Part shown: positions 10,623-23,016 of the stretch, piece after piece
How the letters are laid out: each line of letters opens with the position of its first letter
Position numbering within the stretch: the first letter of the stretch is position 1
Virus record (IMG/VR): IMGVR_UViG_3300033553_000812
Location: 1-37,498 of that record
DNA: 37,498 bases
Reading direction: 5' to 3' (one strand)
From: a virus
Made by a program: the position numbers and the translations under genes
The notes under the pieces: model-generated
Databases searched by the model: none
Seen by the model: only the letters and a program-made list of their open reading frames with translations
Told to the model about the DNA's origin: nothing

Positions 10623-10980
10623 AGGCCGCCCACAGCGCTGGTTCGCCGACGCTGTCATCGACGGACTGATGAGCCTGCACGTGCTCGGCCTCGACGGCCG
10701 TCCGGCGGCCGACCAGATCGACTACACCGCCCAGGTGTGGATCGAATCACTGTGGCCGACCAAGGACTGGATCGAGGCGCTCGACGCCGAGCGTATCCGC
10801 GTCGCCTTCCACGCCCTGGTGCGGGACTGCGATCGCTGGCCGGCCCCGGCGCAGCTGCGTCTGCGGCTGCCCCCGCGTGGCCAGCAGCGGCGCCTGCCGC
10901 GCCCGCCGCGCGACGAACGCGCCGGGCGGGCCTGGATTGCCGAGATCAGACAGACCCTGCGGGAGGCCAGCCATGAATGA
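10615..10980 (+). CDS. Conserved protein preceding mor, unknown function
   Basis: A 121-aa protein. Features are WFADAVIDGLMSLHVLGLDG, then WIESLWPTKDWIEALDAERI, then LVRDCDRWPAPAQLRLRLPPR. The last element resembles a phage replication-accessory or loader-type pattern, but that similarity is too weak to name. The ATG at 10615 is preferred; an ATG at 10597 would add six residues and lengthen the overlap with the preceding gene. The end overlaps mor by eight bases. Confidence 0.65.
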   Translation: MSEGRPQRWFADAVIDGLMSLHVLGLDGRPAADQIDYTAQVWIESLWPTKDWIEALDAERIRVAFHALVRDCDRWPAPAQLRLRLPPRGQQRRLPRPPRDERAGRAWIAEIRQTLREASHE

Positions 10981-11401
10981 CGTCGCGCTTGCGGATCTGC
11001 CGGAGACGGCTCGTGACCTAGCCGACCTGGTCGGCCTGCCCGCCACCTTGCGGCTGGTCCGCCAGCTGGGCGGGACCAGTTTTCCCGTGGCCAAGGGGCG
11101 AACCCGAATGGGGGTGGCTCGCTTCGAACTCCTCGCCGAAGTCGTCGGCGAGGAGGCGGCCGAAACCATCACGCGCCACTACGGAGGTGAAGTGCTGTAC
11201 GTCCCCCGCTGCCACGCCGCCCTCCAGCGCAGCCGCGACCGCGCAATCCACGCGCGGTTCGACGAACGGATCCGCGCCGGGGCGAGCGCCAACCAGACCG
11301 TGGCCGAACTGGCACGAATGCACCAGCTATCGGACCGCCGGGTATGGGACATCCTCAAGACCATCCCCGAGCCGGTTTGCCAGAGCGGTCTGTTCGATTA
11401 G
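10973..11401 (+). CDS. mor: Mor/C family transcription activator
   Basis: A 142-aa protein of the Mor/C family that activates Mu middle and late promoters. Length and layout agree with Mor (129 aa) and C (140 aa): a helical dimerisation region (about 12-75, LADLVGLPATLRLVRQLGGT), the strand with GGEVLYVPRC (about 67-79), then the C-terminal helix-turn-helix (about 108-135, NQTVAELARMHQLSDRRVWDIL). A GGGAGG site precedes the ATG. Only one member of the family is present in the window, so a single activator may do the work of both Mor and C. Confidence 0.92.
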   Translation: MNDVALADLPETARDLADLVGLPATLRLVRQLGGTSFPVAKGRTRMGVARFELLAEVVGEEAAETITRHYGGEVLYVPRCHAALQRSRDRAIHARFDERIRAGASANQTVAELARMHQLSDRRVWDILKTIPEPVCQSGLFD

Positions 11402-11429
11402 AGTTTTCTCATCCAGGAGGAACCGGACC

Positions 11430-11912
11430 ATGAAACGACTCACCACCACCCTCATCGTCGCCACCCTGTCGCTCGGCACCGCCCAGGCCGCCGTGTACAA
11501 ATGCGAAGGACCGAACGGCAAGCTGACGTTCAGCGACCAGCCCTGTCAGGGCGCGCCGAGCGAGGAAGTCACTGTCGATTACATCGAGCCCAGTGCGGAG
11601 CAGCGCCTTGACGCGGCGGAGGCGGCCGCCAGCTACCAGCGGATGTCGCAAGAACGCGATGCCAAGCGGGCAGAGCAAGCTCGGCAAGACAGCATGGCCT
11701 CGATCCGAAACAGCATCGAACGCATGCAGAAGGCGCGAGACCGGGAGCTTGCCGCGCTTCGCGCAAAGAAGGCGCGCGCGAACAACAACCTGGCCGGCGC
11801 CGCCTGGGAGCAGAGCATCAGTCAGGAGATGGAGGCAGTCACGCAGCGGTATGCCGCGGACATTCAGGCAGCCCGCGACCGGCTGCAGGCGCTGCGGAGC
11901 GGCGGGCAATGA
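11430..11912 (+). CDS. Secreted DUF4124-containing protein (probable cargo)
   Basis: A 160-aa protein with a clear signal peptide, cut after about residue 20 (ending SLGTAQA). A DUF4124 module follows (AVYKCEGPNGKLTFSDQPC, about 21-39), with the paired cysteines usual in that family. The rest (about 60-158) is a long charged helix likely to form a coiled coil. DUF4124 proteins are normally chromosomal periplasmic proteins of unknown function and are not part of the Mu core. A strong CAGGAGG site lies upstream. It begins a three-gene block between mor and the lysis genes, so it is best read as accessory. Confidence 0.75.
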   Translation: MKRLTTTLIVATLSLGTAQAAVYKCEGPNGKLTFSDQPCQGAPSEEVTVDYIEPSAEQRLDAAEAAASYQRMSQERDAKRAEQARQDSMASIRNSIERMQKARDRELAALRAKKARANNNLAGAAWEQSISQEMEAVTQRYAADIQAARDRLQALRSGGQ

Positions 11913-12187
11913 ACATGCAGCGCCCCGAGTACATGGACCTGCAGCGACGCTATGGCCGCATGGCATACGCGCTGCGTGACGAGGCCGCCGTGCCTGACCC
12001 GACATTAGCCATCCCTGGCAAGGGCCGCCTCTGGATTTACGATGCGGACGGCAACCCGCTGACGGACAGCAGCGCATGCGTCGACTTCAACGCGGGAACC
12101 GTAGCGCTTCGTGGCGAACACCCGCGAGGGGCAACGCACATCAGCGGCAGCGTCACATTCGAGTGGTCGAACGGAGGCGAGCAATGA
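11909..12187 (+). CDS. Hypothetical protein in cargo block
   Basis: A 92-aa protein, not recognised. It begins with a helix (PEYMDLQRRYGRMAYAL), then a strand-rich part with GKGRLWIYDADGNPL and a final ATHISGSVTFEW. The content suggests a small beta domain. It is coupled by ATGA to the DUF4124 gene and to the next gene. Confidence 0.6.
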   Translation: MNMQRPEYMDLQRRYGRMAYALRDEAAVPDPTLAIPGKGRLWIYDADGNPLTDSSACVDFNAGTVALRGEHPRGATHISGSVTFEWSNGGEQ

Positions 12188-12435
12188 ACCGGCAAGCGAG
12201 GAAGGAACTGCGAGCAGCCAAGCGCATCGCGCGTACTATGCGCGACACGGGAGGCCCCGACTTGACCGGACTGAGCGACGAGGAGCTACTCCGCCGGATC
12301 CGTAGCGCGGGCGAACAGTTGAATCGTGCGATGGCACGGACAACGGTCACGGCAGAAGAGGCAAGCAAATCGCTCCAGGCGATGGGTAAAGCGTTGAAGC
12401 ACGGCATGCCACCGCCGTTCATATCCTCCCACTGA
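12184..12435 (+). CDS. Small basic helical hypothetical protein
   Basis: An 83-aa protein, highly basic in its first 30 residues (RQARKELRAAKRIARTMR), then mostly helical (LSDEELLRRIRSAGEQLNRA). No family is recognised. Its last two codons and stop lie inside the first seven bases of a 34-nt element that is repeated near 21871, so gene end and element were acquired or evolved together. Confidence 0.55.
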   Translation: MNRQARKELRAAKRIARTMRDTGGPDLTGLSDEELLRRIRSAGEQLNRAMARTTVTAEEASKSLQAMGKALKHGMPPPFISSH

Positions 12436-12485
12436 ACCCCCTCCCCACGACCTGACACCCCCACACCCCGCAGCATGCGGGGTGT
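12429..12485 (+). repeat. C-rich repeated element with hairpin, copy 1
   Basis: Bases 12429-12462 match 21871-21904 at 31 of 34 positions, including 21 identical bases at the start. The strand is almost free of G. At the same distance (34 nt from the first base) a hairpin follows: ACACCCCGC (12463-12471), loop AGCAT, GCGGGGTGT (12477-12485). It lies at the end of the first cargo block and upstream of the lysis genes. Confidence 0.85.
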
Positions 12486-12492
12486 GTTGTTT
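12463..12492 (+). terminator. Probable intrinsic terminator before lysis genes
   Basis: A nine-bp GC-rich stem with a five-base loop followed by GTTGTTT. The T-run is interrupted by a G, so termination may be partial. It would separate the cargo transcript from the lysis genes. Confidence 0.6.
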
Positions 12493-12530
12493 ATGCCCGC
12501 GTAAACGGGCCGTAAAGAGGGTGTCACCGC

Positions 12531-12842
12531 ATGCTTTCCGATCTGTTCCCCCGCCTGCGCGATGCTGCGCGCATGACCCCGATTCTCCTGGCCGGCCTGA
12601 TCGCCTCGGCGGTGATCGCCATGCTGGCGCCGCAACAGATCGGGGTGACCCTATACAAGCTCTCGCTGGTCACGCTGGCCGCCTGGCTGGGTTACTGGAT
12701 CGACCGCGGGCTGTTCCCCTACGCCCGACCGCACCGAATGCACTCGCACTCACAGACCGAGCCGGCGCGCTTCTCCTTCGCCACCATCCGCCGGGCGCTG
12801 ATCGTCGCGGCGGCGATGATCGCCGTGGGGCTGGGCGCCTGA
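12531..12842 (+). CDS. Putative holin
   Basis: A 103-aa membrane protein with three hydrophobic segments at about residues 16-34, 41-58 and 86-102, and a charged loop rich in H and R (about 65-85). Size, topology and its place directly before a transglycosylase and spanins fit a holin that makes the inner-membrane hole at lysis. AGAGGG lies upstream of the ATG. It is the first gene of the lysis module. Confidence 0.75.
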   Translation: MLSDLFPRLRDAARMTPILLAGLIASAVIAMLAPQQIGVTLYKLSLVTLAAWLGYWIDRGLFPYARPHRMHSHSQTEPARFSFATIRRALIVAAAMIAVGLGA

Positions 12843-12843
12843 C

Positions 12844-13494
12844 ATGGCCACGCCGGCCCAGCGTTGTGTCATCCGTGGCCTGATCCTGCTGGCACTGGCC
12901 GCGATGCTGGCGTTCCTCTCGATCGCCAGCGGCCAAGCCGCCGGCATTCCGCACGCGGCCGAAACCTACCAGCGCGACCTGACGCGCGAGGCCAACCGCA
13001 TCTGGGGCCTGGGCGCCCCGGTCGCCGGCTTTGCCGCGCAGATCCACGCCGAGAGCGCGTGGCGCCCCGATGCCGTCAGCCCGGTGGGCGCCTCGGGGAT
13101 GGCGCAATTCATGCCCGCCACCGCCCGCTGGATCTGCGGCGCCTACGACCTGCCGGGCTGCGACACCACCAACCCACGCTGGGCGATGCGTGCCCTGGTC
13201 ACCTACGACCGCCACCTGTACGACCTCTGCCACGGCCACACCGACTGCGATCGCGCCTGGTGCGCGCTGCGAAGCTACAACGGCGGTCTCGGACACTACC
13301 GCAACGAGGCCGACAACGCCGCCGATCCGCTCGACCACCGCGCCGTCGACGCCGCCTGCGGCAGTGCCAGCCGAAGCACCCGACACTGCGCCGAGAACCT
13401 TGGCTATCCCCGCCGGATCATCTATGAGCTGCAACCGCGCTACGTCCGCGCCGGCTGGGGCATGGGGTGGCCATGCCGGGAGGGCTGCCCGTGA
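12844..13494 (+). CDS. Lytic transglycosylase (endolysin, SLT type)
   Basis: A 216-aa murein-cleaving enzyme. An N-terminal hydrophobic segment (about 9-32) acts as a signal or signal-anchor sequence. The SLT fold follows, with catalytic E70 in HAESAW, then GASGMAQFMPATA (about 82-94) and the late SYNGGLGHY motif near 144-152. All three are hallmarks of the family 1 transglycosylases. The cysteine-rich C-terminal half (C118, C125 and others) may form disulphides in the periplasm. It sits one base after the holin gene and overlaps the i-spanin start. Confidence 0.92.
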   Translation: MATPAQRCVIRGLILLALAAMLAFLSIASGQAAGIPHAAETYQRDLTREANRIWGLGAPVAGFAAQIHAESAWRPDAVSPVGASGMAQFMPATARWICGAYDLPGCDTTNPRWAMRALVTYDRHLYDLCHGHTDCDRAWCALRSYNGGLGHYRNEADNAADPLDHRAVDAACGSASRSTRHCAENLGYPRRIIYELQPRYVRAGWGMGWPCREGCP

Positions 13495-13895
13495 TTCGCT
13501 GGATCCTCGTCATCGCCGCGCTGGTCGTCACCGCCGGGTCAGGCGTGGCTGGCTACCAGCTCGGGCATCGTGCCGGGGTCGCCGAGATGGAGCGCGAGCA
13601 CCTGGACTCAGTCAAGCGCGCCATCGACCAGGCGGAGCGAATCCAGACCGAGAACGCCGAGCTATTCCGCGAACGCGCCGCCGATCGCGCCAAGGCACGG
13701 CGCATCAACCAACGCACCGCCGAGGAGGCGACCCGTCATGTGGCGACCCATCCTGATCTTTACGGCCAGCGTCTTGACCCTTGCGGGCTGTGCCTCGTCC
13801 GCGCCGCGGCAGCCGGACGTGATCCTGACGACTGCCCCTGCCGAGGCGATGGTCCCGTGCGACGAGATCCAGGAGCCGGGGCCGACGGTGGGTGA
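13491..13895 (+). CDS. i-spanin (Rz-like)
   Basis: A 134-aa protein starting at GTG 13491, which overlaps the preceding stop (GTGA) and has GGGAGG seven bases upstream. An N-terminal transmembrane segment (about 3-22) is followed by a long charged coiled coil (about 28-80, MEREHLDSVKRAIDQAERI). This is the layout of inner-membrane spanins, which bridge to an outer-membrane lipoprotein and fuse the membranes in the last lysis step. Its C-terminal third is read in a different frame as the start of the o-spanin. Confidence 0.82.
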   Translation: MIRWILVIAALVVTAGSGVAGYQLGHRAGVAEMEREHLDSVKRAIDQAERIQTENAELFRERAADRAKARRINQRTAEEATRHVATHPDLYGQRLDPCGLCLVRAAAAGRDPDDCPCRGDGPVRRDPGAGADGG

Positions 13896-14025
13896 CCTGG
13901 CGGTCTCCTACATCGGGTTGGCCGGCGACCGCCGCAACGTCTGCTCCCGACTGACCGACCTGCAACTGTTCATTCTCAGCCTGGAAGGCAGCGCCAACCA
14001 ACTCAAGAGCACCGACAAGGAGTAA
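13738..14025 (+). CDS. o-spanin lipoprotein (Rz1-like), overlapping the i-spanin
   Basis: A 95-aa lipoprotein in a frame one base ahead of the i-spanin gene, sharing 158 nt with it. A signal peptide (about 1-16) ends in a lipobox LAGC, with the lipid-bearing cysteine at about residue 18. The mature part is about 78 aa. GAGGAGG lies upstream of the ATG. Partly embedded Rz/Rz1 pairs are the usual arrangement in phages of Gram-negative hosts and support a host with an outer membrane. Confidence 0.85.
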   Translation: MWRPILIFTASVLTLAGCASSAPRQPDVILTTAPAEAMVPCDEIQEPGPTVGDLAVSYIGLAGDRRNVCSRLTDLQLFILSLEGSANQLKSTDKE

Positions 14026-14028
14026 CCC

Positions 14029-14430
14029 GTGCCCCTCGACAGCATCACCTTTTCCGGCGTCATGCAGTTCATCAACGCCGTCGGCGTGCTCGCCGTCGGG
14101 GTCTACACCTGGCTGATCAGCCGGTCGGTCGCCAACCGAGAGGCGATCGACAAACTGGTCGCCCGCCAGGCCGAGTCAGACCGACGTATCGACCATCTCG
14201 ATTCCGTCTCCGAACACGTCCCCACTCAACGGGATCTTGCTGAAACAGAGCGGCGCATCGAACGGTTGGAGTCCATTTTCGACCATGCCCCGACGCATCA
14301 GGATCTCTCCCAGTTGCATGGCCGTATCAATGATCTGTCCGAGGCCGTGAGCCGGCTGGTCGGGGTGATGAGTGCCGTGCAGCGCTCGCTCGATCGCGTG
14401 GAAACCAAGCTGATGCAGGAGGCGAAATGA
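14029..14430 (+). CDS. DUF2730 family membrane-anchored coiled-coil protein
   Basis: A 133-aa protein from a GTG start with AAGGAG upstream. One transmembrane helix (about 10-30) is followed by a long coiled coil in which two similar stretches occur, around RIDHLDSVSEHVPTQRDLAE and RIERLESIFDHAPTHQDLSQ (about 53-95), a tandem duplication of about 27 residues. DUF2730 proteins are regularly found between the lysis and terminase genes of Mu-like phages (Mu gp25 position). Their role is unknown. Confidence 0.82.
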   Translation: MPLDSITFSGVMQFINAVGVLAVGVYTWLISRSVANREAIDKLVARQAESDRRIDHLDSVSEHVPTQRDLAETERRIERLESIFDHAPTHQDLSQLHGRINDLSEAVSRLVGVMSAVQRSLDRVETKLMQEAK

Positions 14431-14720
14431 CGCACTACCGAGACCTGATTGCCGCTGACCGCCGGCTGGTGCTGCTCCAGGCACTGGCCGAGGTGCCCGA
14501 CTACGCCCTGCGCGAGACCGTGCTGATCCGTCTGCTGGAAGGCGAACGCCTGGCCGTCGGCCAGACCGAGTTGCGCGAAGAGTTCACCTGGTTGGCCGAT
14601 CGCGGCCTGATCACCGTCGAGTACCACGACGACATCCAGGTCGGCCGGATCACCCCGCGCGGGTTAGATGTGGCCGCCGGCCGGGTGGCGATTGACGGTG
14701 TGGCGAGGCCGCGGCCGTGA
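14427..14720 (+). CDS. Winged-helix phage protein (Mu gp26 position)
   Basis: A 97-aa protein that matches the small ArsR-like winged-helix family seen just before the gp27 terminase gene in Mu-like phages. It has ADRRLVLLQALAEVPDYALR (about 10-29), a second helix block to TELREEFTWLADRGLITVEY (about 47-66) and a final wing VGRITPRGLDVA. It is coupled by ATGA to the DUF2730 gene. DNA binding is expected; a link to packaging is inferred from its place only. Confidence 0.78.
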   Translation: MTHYRDLIAADRRLVLLQALAEVPDYALRETVLIRLLEGERLAVGQTELREEFTWLADRGLITVEYHDDIQVGRITPRGLDVAAGRVAIDGVARPRP

Positions 14721-14890
14721 AGCGGGTAATGCAGGCCTTCCGATTCATCGTCAGAAACTTGGCCATCGCTTTCGCCGTTGCGGGCATCGCGTGGGGTACC
14801 GGCTACTGGTTCGGCAAAGGCTGGTCCTATGCCCAGCCCGACGTGACGCTGCACGTGCACTACGAGGACGAGACCGATGCCACCCCGTGA
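14717..14890 (+). CDS. Tiny membrane protein (57 aa)
   Basis: A GTG at 14717 overlaps the previous stop in a GTGA junction. The 57-aa product has a basic start (KRVMQAFRFIVRN), one hydrophobic segment (about 14-33, LAIAFAVAGIAWGTGYWF) and an acidic tail (HVHYEDETDATP). It ends 14 bases inside the gp27 gene. The coupled junctions at both ends and the sensible membrane topology support it as real. A small accessory membrane protein, possibly linked to lysis timing; this is inference. Confidence 0.6.
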   Translation: MKRVMQAFRFIVRNLAIAFAVAGIAWGTGYWFGKGWSYAQPDVTLHVHYEDETDATP

Positions 14891-15425
14891 CAAGATCAGC
14901 CAGCTGCCAGCCGAGGTCCGCACCGCGATCGACCGCCTGCTGATCGACCGCGGCTTCTCCGGTTATGAGGCGCTCGAGGAGCAGATCCTCGAGGCGCACG
15001 GTATCGAGGTGGGCAAGTCCACGCTGCACCGCTACGGCCAGCGCCTGGAGCGCCGCCTGTCGGCGATCAAGGCCAGCACCGAAGCGGCCAAAGCCATCGC
15101 CGATGCGGCCCCAGACGAAGCCGACCAGCGCTCGGCCGCCGTGATCTCGCTAGTGCAGTCCGACCTGTTCGAGGCATTGCTCGACCTGCAAGAGGCCGGC
15201 GACGAGGAGGTCGACACCTCCGAGCGCGTCAAGCTGCTCTCCCGCGCCGCCCGCGCGATCGCGCAGACCGGCCGGGCCTCGGTCAGCCAGAAGAAATGGG
15301 CCGCCGAGATCCGCCGCGAGGCCGCCAACGAGGCGGCCGAGGTGGCCAGTGCCGCCATGGCCAGCCAGGGCATGAGCAGGGAGGCAATCGCCACCATCAA
15401 GCGCGACATCCTGGGGATCGCCTGA
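14877..15425 (+). CDS. Small terminase subunit, gp27-like (DUF3486)
   Basis: A 182-aa protein of the DUF3486 family, equivalent to Mu gp27, thought to recognise phage DNA for headful packaging. Its N-terminal part (PRDKISQLPAEVRTAIDRLL, from residue 3) and the HTH-like stretch to VGKSTLHRYGQRLERRL (about 45-62) are typical. The rest is helical, ending with a GMSREAIATIKRDILGIA tail. It lies directly before the large subunit apart from a 33-codon gene. Confidence 0.9.
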   Translation: MPPRDKISQLPAEVRTAIDRLLIDRGFSGYEALEEQILEAHGIEVGKSTLHRYGQRLERRLSAIKASTEAAKAIADAAPDEADQRSAAVISLVQSDLFEALLDLQEAGDEEVDTSERVKLLSRAARAIAQTGRASVSQKKWAAEIRREAANEAAEVASAAMASQGMSREAIATIKRDILGIA

Positions 15426-15526
15426 TGGAGGAGCTGACCATCGCTCAGGCCATCGTGGAAGCGGGCTCCGACATCGCCTTTGCGATCGTCATCGCAGCGC
15501 TCATTCGAGGCTTTATGAATGACTGA
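15425..15526 (+). CDS. 33-residue membrane peptide between terminase subunits
   Basis: An ATG at 15425 shares its first base with the gp27 stop, and the stop overlaps the gp28 start by eight bases. The 33-aa product begins with acidic residues and carries a hydrophobic stretch (DIAFAIVIAALIRGF, about 16-30). The exact tiling with both neighbours suggests a translated cistron that carries ribosomes from gp27 to gp28. A role of its own is uncertain. Confidence 0.5.
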   Translation: MEELTIAQAIVEAGSDIAFAIVIAALIRGFMND

Positions 15527-17009
15527 CTGCCAATACCGCTACGACCCCGACGAGCTGCTGCTGCCGTATCAGCGCTGCTGGATCGAGGACACGTCCCCAC
15601 TCAAGATCGGCGAGAAGTCGCGCCGCACCGGCCTGACCTGGGCGGAGGCGGCCGATGCGGTACTGACCGCCTCGGCCCAGCGCGCCGCCGGCGGGACGAA
15701 CCATTACTACGTCGGTTCAAACAAGGAGATGGCCATCGAGTTCATCGAGGCCGCCGCCATGTGGGCGCGCGCCTTCGATCGCGCGGCGAGCGCCATCGAG
15801 GAGGAGGTGCTCAAGGACGACGACAAGGACATCCTCACCTTCAACATCCGCTTTGCCTCGGGCTTCAAAATCCAGGCGCTGTCGTCGCGGCCATCGAACC
15901 TGCGCGGTCGCCAGGGCAACGTCACCATCGACGAGGCCGCCCACCACGACAAGCTCGCCGAGGTGCTGAAAGCGGCCATGGCGCTGACGATGTGGGGCGC
16001 ACGCGTCCGCCTGATCAGCACCCACAATGGCGTGGATAACCTGTTCAACGAGCTGATCAAGGATTCCCGCGCCGGCAAGAAGCGCTACAACGTGCACCGC
16101 GTCACGCTGGACGATGCCTGCGAGATGGGCCTTTACCGGCGCATCTGCCAGATCCAGGGCAAGGACTGGACGCCGGCCGACGAGGAACAGTGGAAGGCGG
16201 ATCTCCTCTCCGACACGGCCACGCGCGAGGACGCGCTCGAGGAGTATTACTGCGTGCCCAAGCAGGGTGGTGGCGCCTACCTGTCCCGCGCCCTGATCGA
16301 GGGCCGCATGCGTGATGCGCCGGTGATTCGCTTCGAGGGCAGCGAGGACTTCAACGGCTGGCCGGACCACCTGCGCGAGGCCGAGATCCGCGACTGGTGC
16401 GACGAGCATCTCAAACCGCTGCTCATCGCGCTGAATCCCGACCTGCCGCACGCCTTCGGCGAGGACTTCGGCCGCTCCGGGGATCTGACCATCATCGCGC
16501 CGCTGGAGATCGGGCAGGATCTGACCCGCCGCGCGCCGTTCCTGGTCGAGCTGCGCAACGTCCCGTTCCGCCAGCAGGAGCAGGTGCTCAAGTACATCGT
16601 CGACCGGCTGCCACGGCTGATCGGCGGCGCGCTGGATGCCCGGGGAAACGGTCAGTACCTGGCCGAGCAGGCCACCTATCTGTACGGCGCCTCGCGCGTC
16701 GAGGCCGTGATGCTCTCGCAAGGCTGGTACCTGGAGAACATGCCGCCGTTCAAGGCGGCGTTCGAGGACGGCGAGATCGAGATCCCGCGCGACCTCGACG
16801 TGCTCGACGACCTGCGGGCCCTCCAGGTGATCCGCGGCGTGCCCAAGCTGCCGGACGTCAAGACCGGCGACAAGCGCAACCGCCACGGCGACGCGGCGAT
16901 TGCGCTGGCGCTCGCCCATTACGCAAGCCGCAAGGACGGCATCGAGATCGCCCCCTTCGAGCCGGCCCCACGCCGGGCGGACCTGCCGACCTCGGGAGGG
17001 CTGTGGTGA
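15519..17009 (+). CDS. Large terminase subunit, gp28-like
   Basis: A 496-aa packaging motor of the Mu gp28 family. The ATPase half has the divergent Walker A EKSRRTGLT (about 32-40) and Walker B VTIDEA (135-140), with a STHNG coupling motif near 167-171. The nuclease half has GEDFGRSGD with D316, and a late HGDAAIALALAH motif (about 463-474) with another acidic residue, consistent with an RNase H-type nuclease that cuts host flanking DNA. The usual length is about 500-550 aa, so it is complete. Confidence 0.95.
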   Translation: MTDCQYRYDPDELLLPYQRCWIEDTSPLKIGEKSRRTGLTWAEAADAVLTASAQRAAGGTNHYYVGSNKEMAIEFIEAAAMWARAFDRAASAIEEEVLKDDDKDILTFNIRFASGFKIQALSSRPSNLRGRQGNVTIDEAAHHDKLAEVLKAAMALTMWGARVRLISTHNGVDNLFNELIKDSRAGKKRYNVHRVTLDDACEMGLYRRICQIQGKDWTPADEEQWKADLLSDTATREDALEEYYCVPKQGGGAYLSRALIEGRMRDAPVIRFEGSEDFNGWPDHLREAEIRDWCDEHLKPLLIALNPDLPHAFGEDFGRSGDLTIIAPLEIGQDLTRRAPFLVELRNVPFRQQEQVLKYIVDRLPRLIGGALDARGNGQYLAEQATYLYGASRVEAVMLSQGWYLENMPPFKAAFEDGEIEIPRDLDVLDDLRALQVIRGVPKLPDVKTGDKRNRHGDAAIALALAHYASRKDGIEIAPFEPAPRRADLPTSGGLW

Positions 17010-17296
17010 TGCGCTGGCGTCAACGATTGATCTGGTGGCTGCTGCGTCTGGCCTGTCGTCTCGATCCCGATAGCCATTTCGTGCAGGTCCACATGTCGCC
17101 GACTCTGCCGACCACGGCCGGCCCTGTCTTCGTCTCCAGGGAAGATCAGGAGGCCGCGTTACAACAGGCGCTGATGCAGTACATCCGCATGCGCCGCGAG
17201 CTGGTCATTGCCAACCACGCCGAGCGCGCGCTGGAGCACCACCGCCACGAACTGTTCGAGGAAGAGACCCATGGCGAATTCGATTCTCGGTCCTGA
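17009..17296 (+). CDS. Small protein between terminase and portal
   Basis: A 95-aa protein starting with a short hydrophobic and basic segment (MRWRQRLIWWLLRLACRL) and continuing as a polar helix with RIRMRRELVIANHAE-like content. It overlaps gp28 by one to three bases and the portal gene by 26 bases. I do not recognise a family. A peripheral membrane or head-assembly role is only a guess. Confidence 0.6.
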   Translation: MRWRQRLIWWLLRLACRLDPDSHFVQVHMSPTLPTTAGPVFVSREDQEAALQQALMQYIRMRRELVIANHAERALEHHRHELFEEETHGEFDSRS

Positions 17297-18863
17297 CGGC
17301 ACGCCGATCAGCCCGCGCAAACTGGCGCGCGAACCACAGACCGCTCGCATGGCCAGCCTGCACCGTGAGCTGGCCGACCACCCCACGCGCGGGCTCACCC
17401 CGGCCAAGCTCGCCCGGCTGTACGAGGATGCCGAGGGCGGCGACCTCACTGCCCAGGCACGCCTGGCCGAGGACATGCAGGAGAAGGATCCCCACCTGCA
17501 TGCGGAGATCTCCAAGCGCCAGCTGGCCACCCTGACGGTCGACTGGAACCTGCGCGCGCCCAGTGGTGCCAGCGCGGCCGACCAACGCGCCACCGAGGAG
17601 CTGGAGGCGCTGCTGCGCGAGGAGATGGACATCGACCAGCTGATCCTCGATCTCGCCGGCGCCATCCTGCCGGGCTACGCCGGCATCGAGCTGGAGTGGG
17701 AGCAGTCCGAGGGCCAGTGGCGCGCGACCCCACACGCCCGGTCGGCCGACTGGTTCATGGTCGCCCCGGAGGATCGCGACACCCTTCGCCTGCGCACCAC
17801 CGCCGCCGGTGGCGAGGCCCTGCGCCCCTGGGGCTGGATCGTCCATCACCACCCGGCCAAGTCCGGGTACCTGACGCGCTCCGGGCTGGTGCGCGTGCTG
17901 GGTTGGCCGTTCCTGTTCCGGGCCTTGAGCACCCGCGACTTCGCCGAGTTCCTTGAAATCTACGGGCTACCGCTGCGCGTCGGCCGCTACCCGCGCGGGG
18001 CCACCGACGACGAGAAATCCACCCTGATGCAGGCCGTCGTCAGCATCGGCCACAACGCCGCCGGCATCCTGCCGCAGGGCATGGAGATCGAGTTTCAGGA
18101 AGCCGCCCGCGGTGCGGCCGATCCGTTCCTCGCCATGGTTCGCTGGGCCGAGCAGTCGATCAGCAAGGCGATCCTCGGCGGCACGCTCACCAGCCAGGTG
18201 GATGGCAAGGGCAGTTACGCGGCCGCCCAGACACACGACGAAGTGCGCGACGACATCAAGCGCGCCGACCTGCGCCTGATCGCCCGCACGCTCACGCGCG
18301 ACCTGGTCACCCCGCTGGCCCGCCTGAACACCGGGCTCAAGACCGTCCCGCAGTTCCGGTTCGACACTGCCGAGAACGAAGACATGGGCGCGCTCGCCGA
18401 GAGCCTGCCCAAGCTGGTCGACGCCGGCGTGCGGATCCCGCAGTCGTGGGTGCACGACAAGCTGCGCATCCCGGCCCCGGCAGACGACGAGCCGATCCTT
18501 GCCCGCCCGGCGGCCATGCCGGCGGCCGCGATGCGCGCCAGCCACCGGCAGGGCTGCACCTGCGATGGCTGCCGAGGCGAGCGCCGCGCGGCCCTGGCCG
18601 CCCAGCCCGAGGCCGCCGACCTGCAAGACGAGATCGGCCAGGTCGACCCGGACGGCCAGCACGACCAGGCGCAGCAGATCATCCGACCCATGCTCGACGC
18701 CATCGACGAGGGCCTGACGCCCGAGGAGATCATCGCCAGGCTTGCGGACCAGTACCCGGAAACCGACCCGACCGACCTGACCGAGGCACTCGCCCGCGCC
18801 ATGTTCGCCGCCGAACTGGCCGGCCGCCTGGAAGCACAGCAGGAGGCCGAGCGGGATGCCTGA
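17271..18863 (+). CDS. Portal protein, gp29-like (DUF935)
   Basis: A 530-aa protein of the DUF935 family, the Mu gp29 portal through which DNA enters the head. The start MANSILGPDGTPISPRKLAR is typical and is preferred over an earlier in-frame start at 17208. Family stretches include AEDMQEKDPHLHAEISKRQ (about 66-84), EWEQSEGQWRATPH and LRPWGWIVHHHPAKSGY, and QSISKAILGGTLTSQ (about 297-311). The C-terminal 100 residues are A, P and Q-rich with a small CTCDGC cysteine cluster near 427-432. It is followed at once by gpF, as in Mu. Confidence 0.93.
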   Translation: MANSILGPDGTPISPRKLAREPQTARMASLHRELADHPTRGLTPAKLARLYEDAEGGDLTAQARLAEDMQEKDPHLHAEISKRQLATLTVDWNLRAPSGASAADQRATEELEALLREEMDIDQLILDLAGAILPGYAGIELEWEQSEGQWRATPHARSADWFMVAPEDRDTLRLRTTAAGGEALRPWGWIVHHHPAKSGYLTRSGLVRVLGWPFLFRALSTRDFAEFLEIYGLPLRVGRYPRGATDDEKSTLMQAVVSIGHNAAGILPQGMEIEFQEAARGAADPFLAMVRWAEQSISKAILGGTLTSQVDGKGSYAAAQTHDEVRDDIKRADLRLIARTLTRDLVTPLARLNTGLKTVPQFRFDTAENEDMGALAESLPKLVDAGVRIPQSWVHDKLRIPAPADDEPILARPAAMPAAAMRASHRQGCTCDGCRGERRAALAAQPEAADLQDEIGQVDPDGQHDQAQQIIRPMLDAIDEGLTPEEIIARLADQYPETDPTDLTEALARAMFAAELAGRLEAQQEAERDA

Positions 18864-20223
18864 TCCGGTCCGCATCGGCAATGCCATCGGCCTACCACCG
18901 GCCGACGCCATCCGGTACTTCGAGGCCAAGGGTCTGAAGCTGACCGGCGACTGGCGTGAGCTGTGGCAGGCACAGCATGCCCGCGCCTTCACCGTCGCCC
19001 GCCTGGCGAAGATCGACGTGCTCAAGGACATTCACGGTGGCCTTACGGATGCGTTGAAAGAGGGGAAAACCGAGCGCGACTTCATCCGTGAACTGGCCCC
19101 AAAGCTCCAGCGCAAGGGCTGGTGGGGCGAGGCCATCGACAAGGAGACCGGCGAGGTGCTCGAGGCGTACGACGCCACCGGCCGCCCGGTGCGCTGGGGC
19201 AGCCCGTGGCGACTGCGGCTGATCTACCGCCAGAACCTTCAGACCGCCTACATGGCCGGCCGGTACCGACACCAACAGGAGATGGCCGCCAGCGGCGCGC
19301 GCCCGTACTGGCAGTACCTGGCCGTGCGCGACTCGCACACTCGCCCATCCCATGCCGGTCTGCACGGCCGGGTCTACTCGGCCGACGATCCGGTCTGGTC
19401 CTCGATCTACCCGCCCAACGGCTGGAACTGCCGCTGCCGGGTCCGCGCGCTCTCCGAGCGCCGCCTTCAGTCCGAAGGGCTCACCCCGGAGACCGGGCGC
19501 ACCGAGACCGTCGAGGTGCCCGCCGGCAAGCTGCCGGACGGCAGCCCCGACCTGCGCCCGGTCACCGCCGTGCGCTACACCGACCCGACCACCGGCAAGG
19601 AGCGGCTGCTGGCGCCCGATGCTGGCTGGAGCTACAACCCCGGGCAGGCAGGGCTCGCCCACCTGGGCGAACTGCACCTCGCCGGCAGCGCTAAGGCGCC
19701 GGCGATGCTCGGGGCATTGGCTGCCAGGGAAGCGCTGGCCGATGATCGGGTTCGCCGTGGGGTCGAGGACAGCTACCAGGAGATGGCGCGGGACGTGTTC
19801 GCCGGGCTCGATGCCGCCCAGCCACGGCCGCATGGGCGGGTTCGCCACATCGCCGCGCTGTCGCCCGACGTCATCAAGACGCTGGAACGCCGCGGCATCG
19901 GGCCACAATCCGGCGTGCTTTCGGTACGCGAGGCCGACCTGACCGATATGGCGCGGGCCGACAACGGGCGCGGGGCGGTCGATCGAGACTGGCTGCGGGG
20001 TCTACCCGCCCACCTGGCGAAACCGAGAGCGACCCTGCTGGACGCCACTCAGGACCCACCCACGCTGCTGCTCGCACACGATTACGCCAGCGATGATCGA
20101 ACGATGGTGCTGGTGCGTCTCGATAGCCGGGCGTCGACACCACGGGCCAATGCCGTGACCACGGCGCGGTTGGTGGATCGAGCCGACCTGTCGCGATATG
20201 AGGTACTCGAGGGGAGTCTCTGA
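18856..20223 (+). CDS. Minor head protein gpF-like (SPP1 gp7 family) with extra C-terminal domain
   Basis: A 455-aa protein. Residues about 1-225 form the phage head morphogenesis domain, with the signature region RDSHTRPSHAGLHG (about 159-172) and PPNGWNCRCRVRALSE (about 190-205). After a linker (about 230-300), residues about 320-455 make a separate domain that ends LLLAHDYASDDRTMVLVRL and RYEVLEGSL. Such endings resemble the PBECR-type (barnase/EndoU/colicin-like) nuclease domains found fused to gp7-type head proteins; this is a pattern judgement. It overlaps the portal gene by eight bases and gpG by one. Confidence 0.88.
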   Translation: MPDPVRIGNAIGLPPADAIRYFEAKGLKLTGDWRELWQAQHARAFTVARLAKIDVLKDIHGGLTDALKEGKTERDFIRELAPKLQRKGWWGEAIDKETGEVLEAYDATGRPVRWGSPWRLRLIYRQNLQTAYMAGRYRHQQEMAASGARPYWQYLAVRDSHTRPSHAGLHGRVYSADDPVWSSIYPPNGWNCRCRVRALSERRLQSEGLTPETGRTETVEVPAGKLPDGSPDLRPVTAVRYTDPTTGKERLLAPDAGWSYNPGQAGLAHLGELHLAGSAKAPAMLGALAAREALADDRVRRGVEDSYQEMARDVFAGLDAAQPRPHGRVRHIAALSPDVIKTLERRGIGPQSGVLSVREADLTDMARADNGRGAVDRDWLRGLPAHLAKPRATLLDATQDPPTLLLAHDYASDDRTMVLVRLDSRASTPRANAVTTARLVDRADLSRYEVLEGSL

Positions 20224-20678
20224 TGATCGATATCGACTACAAGGACCGCGCCGTCCTCAATGCCCTCCAGAGCCTGGATAGACGTCTGGACAACCTCACC
20301 CCCGCCATGCGCGATATCGCCGGGGTGCTGACCGACGCCACCGAGCGGGCTTTCCAGGACGAGGCCGATCCCGCCACCGGCACACCCTGGGCACCACTGA
20401 CCGAGGCCACCGTCGGCATGCGCGGCGGCGACGCCCACCCCATCCTCCAGCGCTCCGGCCAGCTGGCGGCCAGCGTTTCCGGCGACTGGGGGCCGGACCA
20501 GGCCGTCGCCGGAACCAACAAGGTCTACGCGGCCATGCAGCAGTTCGGCGGCACCACCGCGGCGACCAGCATGATCCCCGGCAAGGACATCCCCGCCCGC
20601 CCGTTCCTGGGGATCGGCGACGAGGACAAGGACGAGATCCTCGACATCGTCCGCAGCTATCTCGACCCGACCGCCTGA
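20223..20678 (+). CDS. Virion morphogenesis protein, gpG-like
   Basis: A 151-aa protein of the phage virion morphogenesis (Mu gpG / P2 gpS) family, involved in head-tail joining. The pattern TPWAPLTEATV (about 58-68), then HPILQRSGQLAASVSGDW (about 77-94) and the end IPARPFLGIGDEDKDEI (about 124-140) is typical. Its ATG shares a base with the gpF stop. It is the last gene before the cargo slot. Confidence 0.92.
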   Translation: MIDIDYKDRAVLNALQSLDRRLDNLTPAMRDIAGVLTDATERAFQDEADPATGTPWAPLTEATVGMRGGDAHPILQRSGQLAASVSGDWGPDQAVAGTNKVYAAMQQFGGTTAATSMIPGKDIPARPFLGIGDEDKDEILDIVRSYLDPTA

Positions 20679-20756
20679 GAAGCCGTCTAAGCGTTTCTAT
20701 CGGTTCCGGCGGACGACGACATGGGATGAGGGGGGTATCGGCCGGCAGGCGGGGAG

Positions 20757-20775
20757 TTAAACGGGGATTAAACGG
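20757..20775. promoter_or_regulatory. Direct repeats TTAAACGG upstream of the cargo promoter
   Basis: TTAAACGG occurs at 20757-20764 and at 20768-20775, 11 bp apart, one helical turn, ending where the candidate -35 begins. Tandem sites on one face of the DNA suit an activator or repressor. The word also resembles the left-end sequence CTTAACGGG (864-872). Confidence 0.45.
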
Positions 20776-20804
20776 TTGTATGTGCTAGGTATCGGTAATA
20801 GGAT
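20776..20804 (+). promoter_or_regulatory. Candidate promoter of the cargo gene
   Basis: TTGTAT (20776-20781), 17-bp spacer, TAGGAT (20799-20804). About half of the -35 and two thirds of the -10 bases match the sigma-70 consensus. It lies 91 bp upstream of the cargo ATG in the AT-richer gap after gpG, so the gene can be expressed apart from the late operon. Confidence 0.45.
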
Positions 20805-20824
20805 TCCCGCGCCTTCCAGATTCC

Positions 20825-20840
20825 GTGCTCTGGGCAGCAC
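20825..20840. promoter_or_regulatory. Inverted repeat in the cargo leader
   Basis: GTGCT (20825-20829), spacer CTGGGC, AGCAC (20836-20840). It would lie about 15 bases into the transcript from the candidate promoter. Anti-CRISPR operons often have such repeats bound by an Aca regulator, but no Aca-like gene is seen next to this gene. Confidence 0.35.
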
Positions 20841-20894
20841 TTGACGCTTGTTCAGGATCAGCAAGCCGCGCACATGACAGTCAATGGAGTGACC

Positions 20895-21842
20895 ATGAAT
20901 GATATGAGCAAATCATCCTTCTATGTCGTTTACGACGGCCCTGCGCTCGAAAGCAATCAGATGGATGTGCGTGATCTTGCGCCCGCCTTGCTGGCGCTGG
21001 GCGATGTGCTGGAGGAAGCGAACTACGTCATCAATGGGGATCACGCCAAAGTGAGCCTCAACGTTCGGGCGTCTTTCAAGACGGGCTGTTTCGGTATCGA
21101 GTTCGATGTCGTCCAAGGCATGCTCAGCCATGCCTTGGACTTCTTCCGTCACTCAGCGGTTGCTGATGCCCAGGAGCTCCTCGGCTACCTGGGGTTCGTC
21201 TACATGTCAGGCCATACCAGCTACAAGGGCCTGATGGGTGTGATCAAGTGGCTGAGGGGGCGCCAAGTTGATCGGGTAGTTCTGCTCGACAATGGGCGGG
21301 TCAAGATCATTGCCGATAGCGACTCACTCGAAATTGAGCAGCGTGTTCTTGAGCTCTACCGTCAATACCGTTTACGACAGGCCCTTGATCGTGCCATCAA
21401 CCAGCCGCTGAAACGGGACGGCATCAACTCTTTTGCGGTGTCCGAAAGCCCGGAATCAGATCACTTCACTGACGTCCAGAAGAACGAGGCGATTTGGTAT
21501 GCAACTCCAGAGATTGGTGAGGAGGTCATCGCTGACCAAGAGGAGGTGACCAACCTGCAACTCGTGAGCATTGCTTTTCGCGAAGAGAACAAGTGGCGAG
21601 TTTCCGATGGCAGTGGGTCCTTCTATGCCAGCATCAGCGACACGAACTTTCTGGACCGCATACAACATAACGAGGTGAGCTTCTCTAAGGGCGACATCCT
21701 CAAGGTGCGGCTCCGTAAACGGCAGTGGATCGTGGGAGAAGACATGAAGTCCGAATACGATATTTTGGAAGTGATCGAACACCGTCGTGCTGCCGCTCAA
21801 CTTCAACTGAAGATGGACGATTCTCGCGGGCATGACGCCTGA
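20895..21842 (+). CDS. Cargo (moron) protein of unknown function in the anti-CRISPR slot
   Basis: A 315-aa protein, family not recognised. The ATG at 20895 is used because GGAG lies five bases before it; an ATG at 20874 and a TTG at 20841 lie upstream in frame. The sequence is clearly less GC-rich than its neighbours. The N-terminal domain (about 1-150) begins SFYVVYDGPALESNQMDVRD, has DLAPALLALGDVLEEANYVI, and a strand pair KVSLNVRASFKTGCFGIEFDV. A basic segment GVIKWLRGRQVDRVV (about 115-129) joins a second part. The C-terminal domain (about 210-305) is strand-rich (EENKWRVSDGSGSFYASISD). No signal peptide, membrane segment or HTH is seen, so it is probably cytoplasmic. It has its own candidate promoter and terminator-like end, and lies between gpG and the protease. 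Confidence 0.8.
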   Translation: MNDMSKSSFYVVYDGPALESNQMDVRDLAPALLALGDVLEEANYVINGDHAKVSLNVRASFKTGCFGIEFDVVQGMLSHALDFFRHSAVADAQELLGYLGFVYMSGHTSYKGLMGVIKWLRGRQVDRVVLLDNGRVKIIADSDSLEIEQRVLELYRQYRLRQALDRAINQPLKRDGINSFAVSESPESDHFTDVQKNEAIWYATPEIGEEVIADQEEVTNLQLVSIAFREENKWRVSDGSGSFYASISDTNFLDRIQHNEVSFSKGDILKVRLRKRQWIVGEDMKSEYDILEVIEHRRAAAQLQLKMDDSRGHDA

Positions 21843-21870
21843 TTCTCCTGCTCCGCTGAAAGCCACGTTT

Positions 21871-21924
21871 CCACTGAACCCCCTCCCCACGTCCTAACTC
21901 CCCCGCGGCCCGATCATGGGCCGC
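21871..21924 (+). repeat. C-rich repeated element with hairpin, copy 2
   Basis: Bases 21871-21904 match copy 1 at 31 of 34 positions. The hairpin again starts 34 nt from the first base but has another sequence: GCGGCCC (21905-21911), loop GATCAT, GGGCCGC (21918-21924). It has no T-run. It ends exactly at the ATG of the protease (21925); a second possible ATG at 21916 starts in its loop. Confidence 0.85.
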
Positions 21925-23016
21925 ATGAAGCGAAAGCATCAACGAATCGCAGCCCTTGCGGCACTGATCCCTGACGCCACGTCCGGGGTGCCGGCCGAGG
22001 TGCAGCTGCTGCCTGCCGGCGAGTTCCGCTCCGGTGACGTCCGTCCCAAGGACGTGCCCGCCTGGATCGTCGACCGCGAGGTCGCCGACAACCTGATCGC
22101 CGCCGCTGCCCAGCGGACCAACCCCTACGTCATCGACTTCGAGCACCAGACGCTCTACGTGGAGCTCAACGGCCAGCCTGCGCCCGCGGCCGGCTGGTTC
22201 CGTGAACTCGAATGGCGCGAGGGCGTGGGCCTGTTCGCCGTCAACGTCGAATGGACCGAGCGCGCCCGGCAGATGATCGCCGCCGGCGAGTACCGCTTTA
22301 TCTCCCCCGTCTTCTCCTATGGCCCGGACGGCCGCGTCCGGCGCCTGTATCACGCCGCCCTGACTAACGACGCCGGCATCGACGGCATGGCCGCCGTGGC
22401 CGCACGCGCCGAGCACTTCCACCCCGACCACCAACCCGACCCGGAGGAATCCGCCGTGGATGAAGAAACCCTTGCCGCGCTGGGCCTGAAGAAGGACGCC
22501 AGCGCCGAAGAGATCAAGACCGCTATCGCCGCCCTGAAAGCACAGCACGGCCACGTGCTCGCCGCACTGGGCCTTAAGGAGGACGCCGGCGAGGAAGAGA
22601 TCAAGACCACCGTCACCGCCCTGACCACGAAGGCAGGCCAGGTCGATGAGGCCAAGGAGCAGCTGGCCGCGCTGAAGTCCAGCCACCAGCCCAACGAAGT
22701 CGTCGCTGCACTGCGTGGCCAGGTCGCGGACCTGACCAAGCGCGTCAATGAGCGTGATGTCGACGACCTGGTTAAGCCGGCCATCGAGGACGGCCGCCTG
22801 CTCAAGGAACAAGAGACCTGGGCGCGCGAACTGGGCGAGTCCAACCCGGCCGCTCTCAAGAAGTACCTCGACACCGCCCAGCCGATCGCCGCCCTCAAGG
22901 GCATGCAGTCCGGCGGCAAGACCCCGCCGGATTCCGGCGACCCGCTCTCCGATGAGCAGCGCGCCGTGGCCGGCATGTTCGGCAACACCCCCGAAGACCT
23001 CGCGAAGTACAGCTAA
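21916..23016 (+). CDS. Head maturation protease, gpI-like, with C-terminal scaffold region
   Basis: A 366-aa protein (363 if started at the ATG at 21925) of the Mu gpI protease family, which processes the prohead scaffold. Family features are EVQLLPAGEFRSGDVRPKD (about 26-44), NPYVIDFEHQTLYV (about 68-81) and AGEYRFISPVFSYGPDGRV (about 124-142), and NDAGIDGMAAVAARAE. The second half, from about residue 181, is the helical scaffold and contains two tandem 29-residue repeats. Neither candidate start has a clear ribosome-binding site; both sit in or next to the hairpin of repeat copy 2. It is the first gene of the head operon. Confidence 0.9.
   Translation: MGRMKRKHQRIAALAALIPDATSGVPAEVQLLPAGEFRSGDVRPKDVPAWIVDREVADNLIAAAAQRTNPYVIDFEHQTLYVELNGQPAPAAGWFRELEWREGVGLFAVNVEWTERARQMIAAGEYRFISPVFSYGPDGRVRRLYHAALTNDAGIDGMAAVAARAEHFHPDHQPDPEESAVDEETLAALGLKKDASAEEIKTAIAALKAQHGHVLAALGLKEDAGEEEIKTTVTALTTKAGQVDEAKEQLAALKSSHQPNEVVAALRGQVADLTKRVNERDVDDLVKPAIEDGRLLKEQETWARELGESNPAALKKYLDTAQPIAALKGMQSGGKTPPDSGDPLSDEQRAVAGMFGNTPEDLAKYS
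22456..23016 (+). CDS. Probable internal scaffold product (gpZ-like), in frame within the protease gene
   Basis: GGAGG (22443-22447) lies eight bases before an in-frame GTG at 22456, exactly where the protease domain ends. The product would be a 186-aa acidic helical protein. Mu makes its scaffold gpZ from an internal start in gene I, like lambda Nu3 in C, so the arrangement is expected. The separate product is inferred. Confidence 0.6.
   Translation: MDEETLAALGLKKDASAEEIKTAIAALKAQHGHVLAALGLKEDAGEEEIKTTVTALTTKAGQVDEAKEQLAALKSSHQPNEVVAALRGQVADLTKRVNERDVDDLVKPAIEDGRLLKEQETWARELGESNPAALKKYLDTAQPIAALKGMQSGGKTPPDSGDPLSDEQRAVAGMFGNTPEDLAKYS
22471..22644 (+). repeat. Tandem 87-bp coding repeat in the scaffold region
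   Basis: Two in-frame copies, 22471-22557 and 22558-22644, encode LAALGLKKDASAEEIKTAI and LAALGLKEDAGEEEIKTTV followed by a similar 10-residue helix. A duplication of a 29-residue helical unit in the scaffold. Confidence 0.85.

Follow-up and report, generated by a model that had tools for sequence, protein, structure and literature searches.

We analyzed a 37,498-nt stretch of viral DNA (IMG/VR record IMGVR_UViG_3300033553_000812, positions 1 to 37,498; below, the window). It is a Mu-like prophage in which a 34-nt element followed by a hairpin occurs twice, and we conclude, at a probability of about 0.86, that the two copies are paired late promoters activated by a Mor-family protein. Copy 1, between cargo genes and the holin and endolysin genes, would be Plys, and copy 2, which separates cargo from the Mu-type protease gene, would be PI. 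The -10 element of each promoter would sit in the hairpin loop, the PI mRNA would be leaderless, and RNA reading through from upstream would be silenced or terminated. The placement at the two borders, described in an earlier note made from the sequence alone, was confirmed by gene annotation. Box, spacing, dyad, and placement give strong support, at the level of sequence, to the late control region for a Mor-type activator that the note proposed at Plys and PI. The note missed the -10 hexamer in the hairpin loop and the leaderless protease mRNA predicted at copy 2.

RESULTS

Two copies of the element and their hairpins

Copy 1 (12429-12462, CCACTGAACCCCCTCCCCACGACCTGACACCCCC) and copy 2 (21871-21904, CCACTGAACCCCCTCCCCACGTCCTAACTCCCCC) are identical at 31 of 34 positions and lie, like the promoter parts and genes of the window given here, on the plus strand. 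In both, a perfect hairpin runs from base 35 on; the earlier note had reported the pair and the stem at +34, and alignment, scans, and folding agreed with it. Shuffled windows gave zero matches to the 34-mer. A matrix scan of the window for a third copy returned these two sites only (22.2 bits each; next best, 8.1), and no further 34-mer was found in a scan of the whole assembly. The hairpin of copy 1, ACACCCCGC-AGCAT-GCGGGGTGT, extends on folding to 11 bp (12462-12486, -21.5 kcal/mol), and that of copy 2, GCGGCCC-GATCAT-GGGCCGC, has 7 bp (21905-21924, -16.7 kcal/mol); neither folding energy was matched by any shuffled sequence. The terminator-like copy 1 hairpin, which was picked up by a terminator scan, combines a GC stem with a following T-run, TTGTTT, although this tail is weak. 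No T tail follows the copy 2 hairpin, whose right arm directly abuts ATGAAG at 21925. We consider 21925 a likelier protease start than 21916.

Each 34-mer is the putative activator box of its promoter, with the core TGAACCCCCTC at 12433-12443 in copy 1 (dyad center, ~12438.5) and at 21875-21885 in copy 2 (dyad center, ~21880.5). The predicted Plys -10 hexamer, CAGCAT (12471-12476), is enclosed by the copy 1 hairpin, and its T is element position 48; it was assigned from the spacing in relatives. The predicted PI -10 hexamer, GATCAT (21912-21917), lies in the loop of the copy 2 hairpin and was assigned from conservation in relatives. The Plys RNA would start at ~12483, which falls within the right hairpin arm, and would have a normal leader. 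The last cargo gene of slot 1 terminates at the TGA within the copy 1 box (12433-12435).

Features of the protease start in relatives

Eighty viral loci fetched by protease alignment, together with relatives from host genomes, yielded 71 non-redundant protease starts. A hairpin whose right arm ended 0-2 nt before the ATG was present at 62% of them, whereas 4.8% of 599 other open reading frame (ORF) starts from these loci had one (Fisher p 8e-31); the proportion fell to 22% when right arms were swapped between phages and to 3% after shuffling. Motifs resembling a Shine-Dalgarno (SD) sequence preceded 8% of the protease starts and 51% of the other ORF starts. With the A of the ATG taken as +1, an A was found at -11 in 48 of the 71 starts and a T at -7 in 44. 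These are the two best-conserved bases of the sigma-70 -10 element. Thus, both sequence marks of a leaderless mRNA were present, namely, the near absence of SD sequences and a -10 element at the distance that makes the A of the ATG +1, and the protease mRNA is predicted from them to be leaderless, with the RNA starting at or beside this A.

A dyad scan of the 90 nt upstream of the 71 starts gave only two strong peaks, at -43.5 (z 7.8) and -9.5 (z 7.0). The published Mor dimer site in the Mu promoter Pm is centered at -43.5, where it replaces the -35 element (PMC4390567). No RNA data entered into this agreement of the upstream peak with the published Mor center, which we regard as the best evidence for two points: the box is the site of a Mor-family protein, and protease transcription begins at the start codon. 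In copy 2 of the window, the dyad center would be at -44.5 if the RNA starts at 21925.

Position of the box and -10 hexamer downstream of mor

For the lysis side, 80 viral loci were fetched by Mor protein alignment alone, with the element disregarded. The box was found downstream of mor in 71 of the 80, a count that applies to phages with a Mor of the kind searched for, as the search pattern took in part of the recognition helix. The distance from mor to the box ranged from 37 to 1866 nt, indicating that the slot is variable and the box constant. A hexamer of the form xAxxxT ended at element position 46-48 in 22 of 23 non-redundant mor-side sites, compared with 0-13% for other three-position windows. 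At the mor-side locus L164, the box-like sequence that was matched first turned out to be a chance hit within a gene, and a stricter pattern excluded it.

In Pseudomonas phage LPB1 and many relatives, an ATG right after the lysis-side hairpin opens a protein of ~113 aa that is conserved from its N terminus, and copy 1 of the window has no ATG directly after its hairpin. An unannotated 115-aa gene of LPB1 (L045, 9997-10344), conserved in many Mu-like phages, stands directly after the lysis-side promoter.

The element was located at the same two borders in LPB1 and in the Symbiopectobacterium prophages L003 and L005, and at the apparent lysis side in L015, from another genus of the family. Compared with L005, the protease-side promoter of L003 (8706-8760) has apparently lost its -10 element and start codon by a deletion beside the box. 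An exact 21-mer scan of viral contigs gave no match, and the box had to be relaxed. When the box was combined with GGCGNNATG and a gap of 20-34 nt was allowed, 61 distinct sites were obtained, 54 of them spanning 52 or 53 nt in total, in loci that mostly encode Mor or the protease. Near matches elsewhere in the host family were mostly due to chance or in unrelated sequence and were set aside. Several element-bearing viral contigs carry a third copy before a gene of ~120 aa, which we take to be a Mu gp46-like baseplate gene. In these copies, too, the -10 element is at 47 and the hairpin is immediately followed by an ATG. Thus, the check proposed in the earlier note, a search of relatives for the element at the same borders with covarying stems or for a third copy before a tail operon, succeeded on both counts, the latter in some relatives.

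Covariation of the hairpin and box

Hairpin covariation in fixed columns is not significant because the loop length varies, and arm pairing was therefore assessed with a register-free arm-swap test. Among the 53 starts without a GGCGG right arm, 53% of right arms paired with the left arm of the same start and 13% with a left arm from another phage; the maximum over 300 permutations was 30%. Examples of the exchanged stems are GACCCGCA/TGCGGGTC, CCTCGC/GCGAGG, GTAGCCA/TGGCTAC, and GCCTCTA/TGGAGGC.

The dyad of the activator box, which in relatives reads GAA-N4-TTC, also covaries (z 5.1). In most records that could be checked, the lysis- and protease-side promoters have a common, phage-specific box, and some records have no clear partner. 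Shared boxes include CTGAAGCCCTTCAG in G401 (19/20), CGGAACYYCTTCCG in G397 (16/20), and TGTGCTGAACCCCGCC in G404 (20/20). In a Pantoea phage, the Mor helix has FANTWAW in place of xSDRxxW, and both borders carry a different box, CCGTCTCACCCCTGTCACT. A box that varies with the phage and with its Mor helix behaves as a site read by its own dimeric activator should.

The element as the right edge of both cargo slots

A sibling prophage in the same genus (G001) is 86-91% identical to the window and has both element copies, as LPB1 also has two. Alignment of the window with this sibling ends at 11355 and 20697 and resumes at 12428, 1 base before copy 1, and at 21871, the first base of copy 2. The two prophages have unrelated genes between these breaks in both slots; in slot 2, the sibling has different genes of 331 and 214 aa. 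Across the four copies in the two prophages, 21 bp are identical. Since homology resumes at the element edges, we assign the element to the phage backbone, where it bounds each cargo slot on the right. No shared sequence was found when the left slot borders were compared.

Genes around the two proposed promoters

The presumed regulator of both promoters is encoded upstream of cargo slot 1 by a Mor-family late transcriptional activator gene (10973-11401). The ORF containing it matched Pfam Mor (E 5.6e-15) and PHROG 836, "late transcriptional activator" (E 5e-40), and the gene was aligned with those of relatives. Slot 1 (11424-12435) comprises a DUF4124-type gene and two small genes, in place of which the sibling has an unrelated gene. 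Downstream of copy 1, the lysis operon begins with the holin gene (12531-12842; Pfam Holin_2-3, E 6.4e-24), followed by an endolysin of the SLT transglycosylase type (12844-13494; Pfam and PHROG matches). To the left of slot 2 is a Mu G-like virion morphogenesis gene (20223-20678; Pfam Phage_tail_S, E 3.5e-34), and the slot holds a low-GC gene of PHROG 3243, function unknown (20841-21842), where the sibling has other genes. The Mu I-like head maturation protease/scaffold gene, whose mRNA is the one predicted to be leaderless, occupies 21925-23016 (Pfam Mu-like_Pro, E 4.4e-101) and contains a tandem 87-nt repeat, 77% identical, at 22471-22643.

The left part of slot 2 carries GTTAAACGGGGATTAAACGG at 20758-20785. 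Related T-rich TTTAAACGGGGTTTAAA motifs occur ~130-300 nt upstream of the protease gene in several Mu-like phages, and Mu has a related T-rich TTTAAACGGGGTTTAAA motif near its annotated gyrase cut site. The GTTAAACGGGGATTAAACGG region is possibly a central strong gyrase site.

DISCUSSION

The window has what distinguishes promoters of the Mor/C type: a Mor gene upstream, a dyad at about -43.5 with no good -35 element, a -10 element at fixed spacing, and a position before the lysis and protease genes. We infer that a Mor-family activator binds the box in the shared 34-mer; this box would be centered ~43.5 nt before the RNA start and substitute for a -35 element. At PI, the start codon follows immediately on the right hairpin arm, so that RNA synthesis would begin at or next to the A of the ATG and give a leaderless protease mRNA. 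RNA that reads through from upstream, from mor and the cargo or from the lysis operon, would carry the whole hairpin. In such RNA the hairpin may hide the PI start codon, which has no ribosome-binding site, and at Plys it may act as a terminator, so that the late genes would be expressed only after Mor fires the promoter. The layout is that of a timing hairpin, in that the predicted pairing covers the translation start in read-through RNA and the late promoter lies inside it. Silencing by the hairpin is proposed by analogy with T4 gene e.

Several observations weigh against this reading. The hairpin shows no covariation in fixed columns (z 0.5), and its covariation was seen only in the register-free test. 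The finding of the box in 71 of 80 loci is limited to phages with the searched Mor helix motif. The hairpin is not universal, as enterobacterial Plys copies (AATACTGACACC) have no inverted repeat, which indicates that the promoter there does not need one. In the window, both -10 hexamers match TATAAT poorly, and the predicted RNA start of copy 1 falls in a hairpin arm, so that this mRNA would not be leaderless. Finally, Mu itself uses a second activator, C, for its Plys and PI promoters.

Other explanations were weighed against paired Mor-activated promoters. That the elements are intrinsic terminators or insulators ending the cargo transcripts, with no promoter at all and with a C-rich stretch that loads Rho or serves as an upstream signal, agrees with the -21.5 kcal/mol fold and T-rich tail of copy 1, with its detection by the terminator scan, and with the strong stem and T-run at the lysis border of several relatives, such as L015 and the Pantoea phage. 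We nevertheless regard it as very unlikely, because copy 2 has no T tail, C-richness is not conserved, and the fixed distance from box to hexamer, the xAxxxT in the loop, the dyad at -43.5, and the ATG at +1 are left unexplained. The boxes of relatives at the same borders (CTGAACCCCTTCC) have only 1-3 C-runs of at least 3 in the first 34 nt. The Rho-loading site was dropped on this ground, and so was a G-quadruplex on the minus strand, which the four G-tracts of both window copies would allow and which we consider almost certainly wrong; the C-richness and G-tracts from which the earlier note had derived these two roles are peculiar to this high-GC phage, and the tracts follow the high GC of its host.

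The idea that the elements are recombination seams for cargo swapping, through short homology or as a recombinase target, with the promoter look secondary, draws on the resumption of sibling homology at the element edge in both slots, on the 21 bp identical in all four copies, and on the variable slot length (37-1866 nt). The element does coincide with the junction of backbone and cargo. We discarded a recombinase site, as the left slot borders have no common sequence and there is no pair of target sites. Moreover, no cargo was seen moving between slots, the box differs between phages while its spacing to the -10 element is kept, and, in a published survey, the plastic regions of the P. aeruginosa relatives showed no recombinase target in common (PMC4378225). 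The conserved spacing and -10 element explain the element as a promoter, with no need for a recombinase, and we judge the seam highly improbable. Promoters that are real but whose inverted repeat acts as DNA, as the site of a dimeric repressor or through an effect on the open complex, are unlikely; in their favor, the repeat is centered at -9.5, in the region melted by RNA polymerase. However, the arms differ freely while pairing is kept and the loop length varies, where a protein site would keep its sequence, and action as RNA is favored by the lack of an SD sequence and by an arm that extends to the ATG.

If the promoters work as proposed, the cargo slots end where they do because the next base belongs to the late promoter of essential genes. 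There is perhaps an even chance that this holds broadly among Mu-like phages as a timing lock, in which the -10 element is nested in the loop of a hairpin whose arms evolve by compensatory change, read-through RNA is silent, Mor-activated RNA is leaderless, and the promoter is the fixed right border of the cargo (anti-defense) slots; new cargo could then enter without disturbing late gene timing. The result is an explicit and testable late-promoter code for a large group of phages, the D3112-like phages and their relatives, including P. aeruginosa phages that carry anti-CRISPRs. It could be used to annotate late operons, to correct start codons (21925 instead of 21916, and the unannotated 115-aa gene of LPB1), and to delimit accessory loci.

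Mu late promoters and the timing hairpins of T4 are already known. A search of the open-access literature, which did not extend to many subscription papers (the original report of the D3112 genome among them), turned up no account of the box, of a covarying hairpin enclosing a -10 element, or of late mRNAs in Mu-like phages that lack a leader. Known phages with the element include Casadabanvirus (D3112-like) phages of P. aeruginosa, such as LPB1, which have it at the same two borders and with the same spacing. Unlike the window, LPB1 is predicted to be leaderless at both sites, has no slot 1 cargo, and carries unrelated cargo genes. The promoter features in the LPB1 record do not include the element sites. 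Cargo slot 2 corresponds to the accessory region between G and the protease that holds anti-CRISPR genes in the P. aeruginosa relatives. D3112-like phages of P. aeruginosa carry anti-CRISPR genes in an accessory region, their promoter positions were proposed from prediction programs, and the survey of their plastic regions saw no common flanking sequence (PMC4378225).

The Mu promoters Plys, PI, and PP (activator C) and Pm (Mor) resemble those of the window in the activator family, the use of both borders, the site near -43.5 that replaces the -35 element, and the weak -10 element (PMC4390567, PMC4461284). The window differs from Mu in having a single Mor-family gene before the lysis operon, a different box sequence, a -10 element in the loop of a covarying hairpin, and a PI mRNA predicted to be leaderless, whereas the Mu protease gene has an AGGA-type site before its ATG. 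The nearest precedent for silent read-through RNA is T4 gene e, which has no sequence relation to the element. For gene e and I-TevI, the translation start is covered by a hairpin in the long early RNAs. The late promoter is located within or beside the 5' arm of that hairpin, so that late RNA is made without the hairpin and is translated (PMC3014915). The late RNAs of T4 keep their ribosome-binding site, whereas that of the window is predicted to start at the AUG. The proposed promoters thus combine an activator site, a hairpin-nested -10 element, and a leaderless start, which are usually seen apart.

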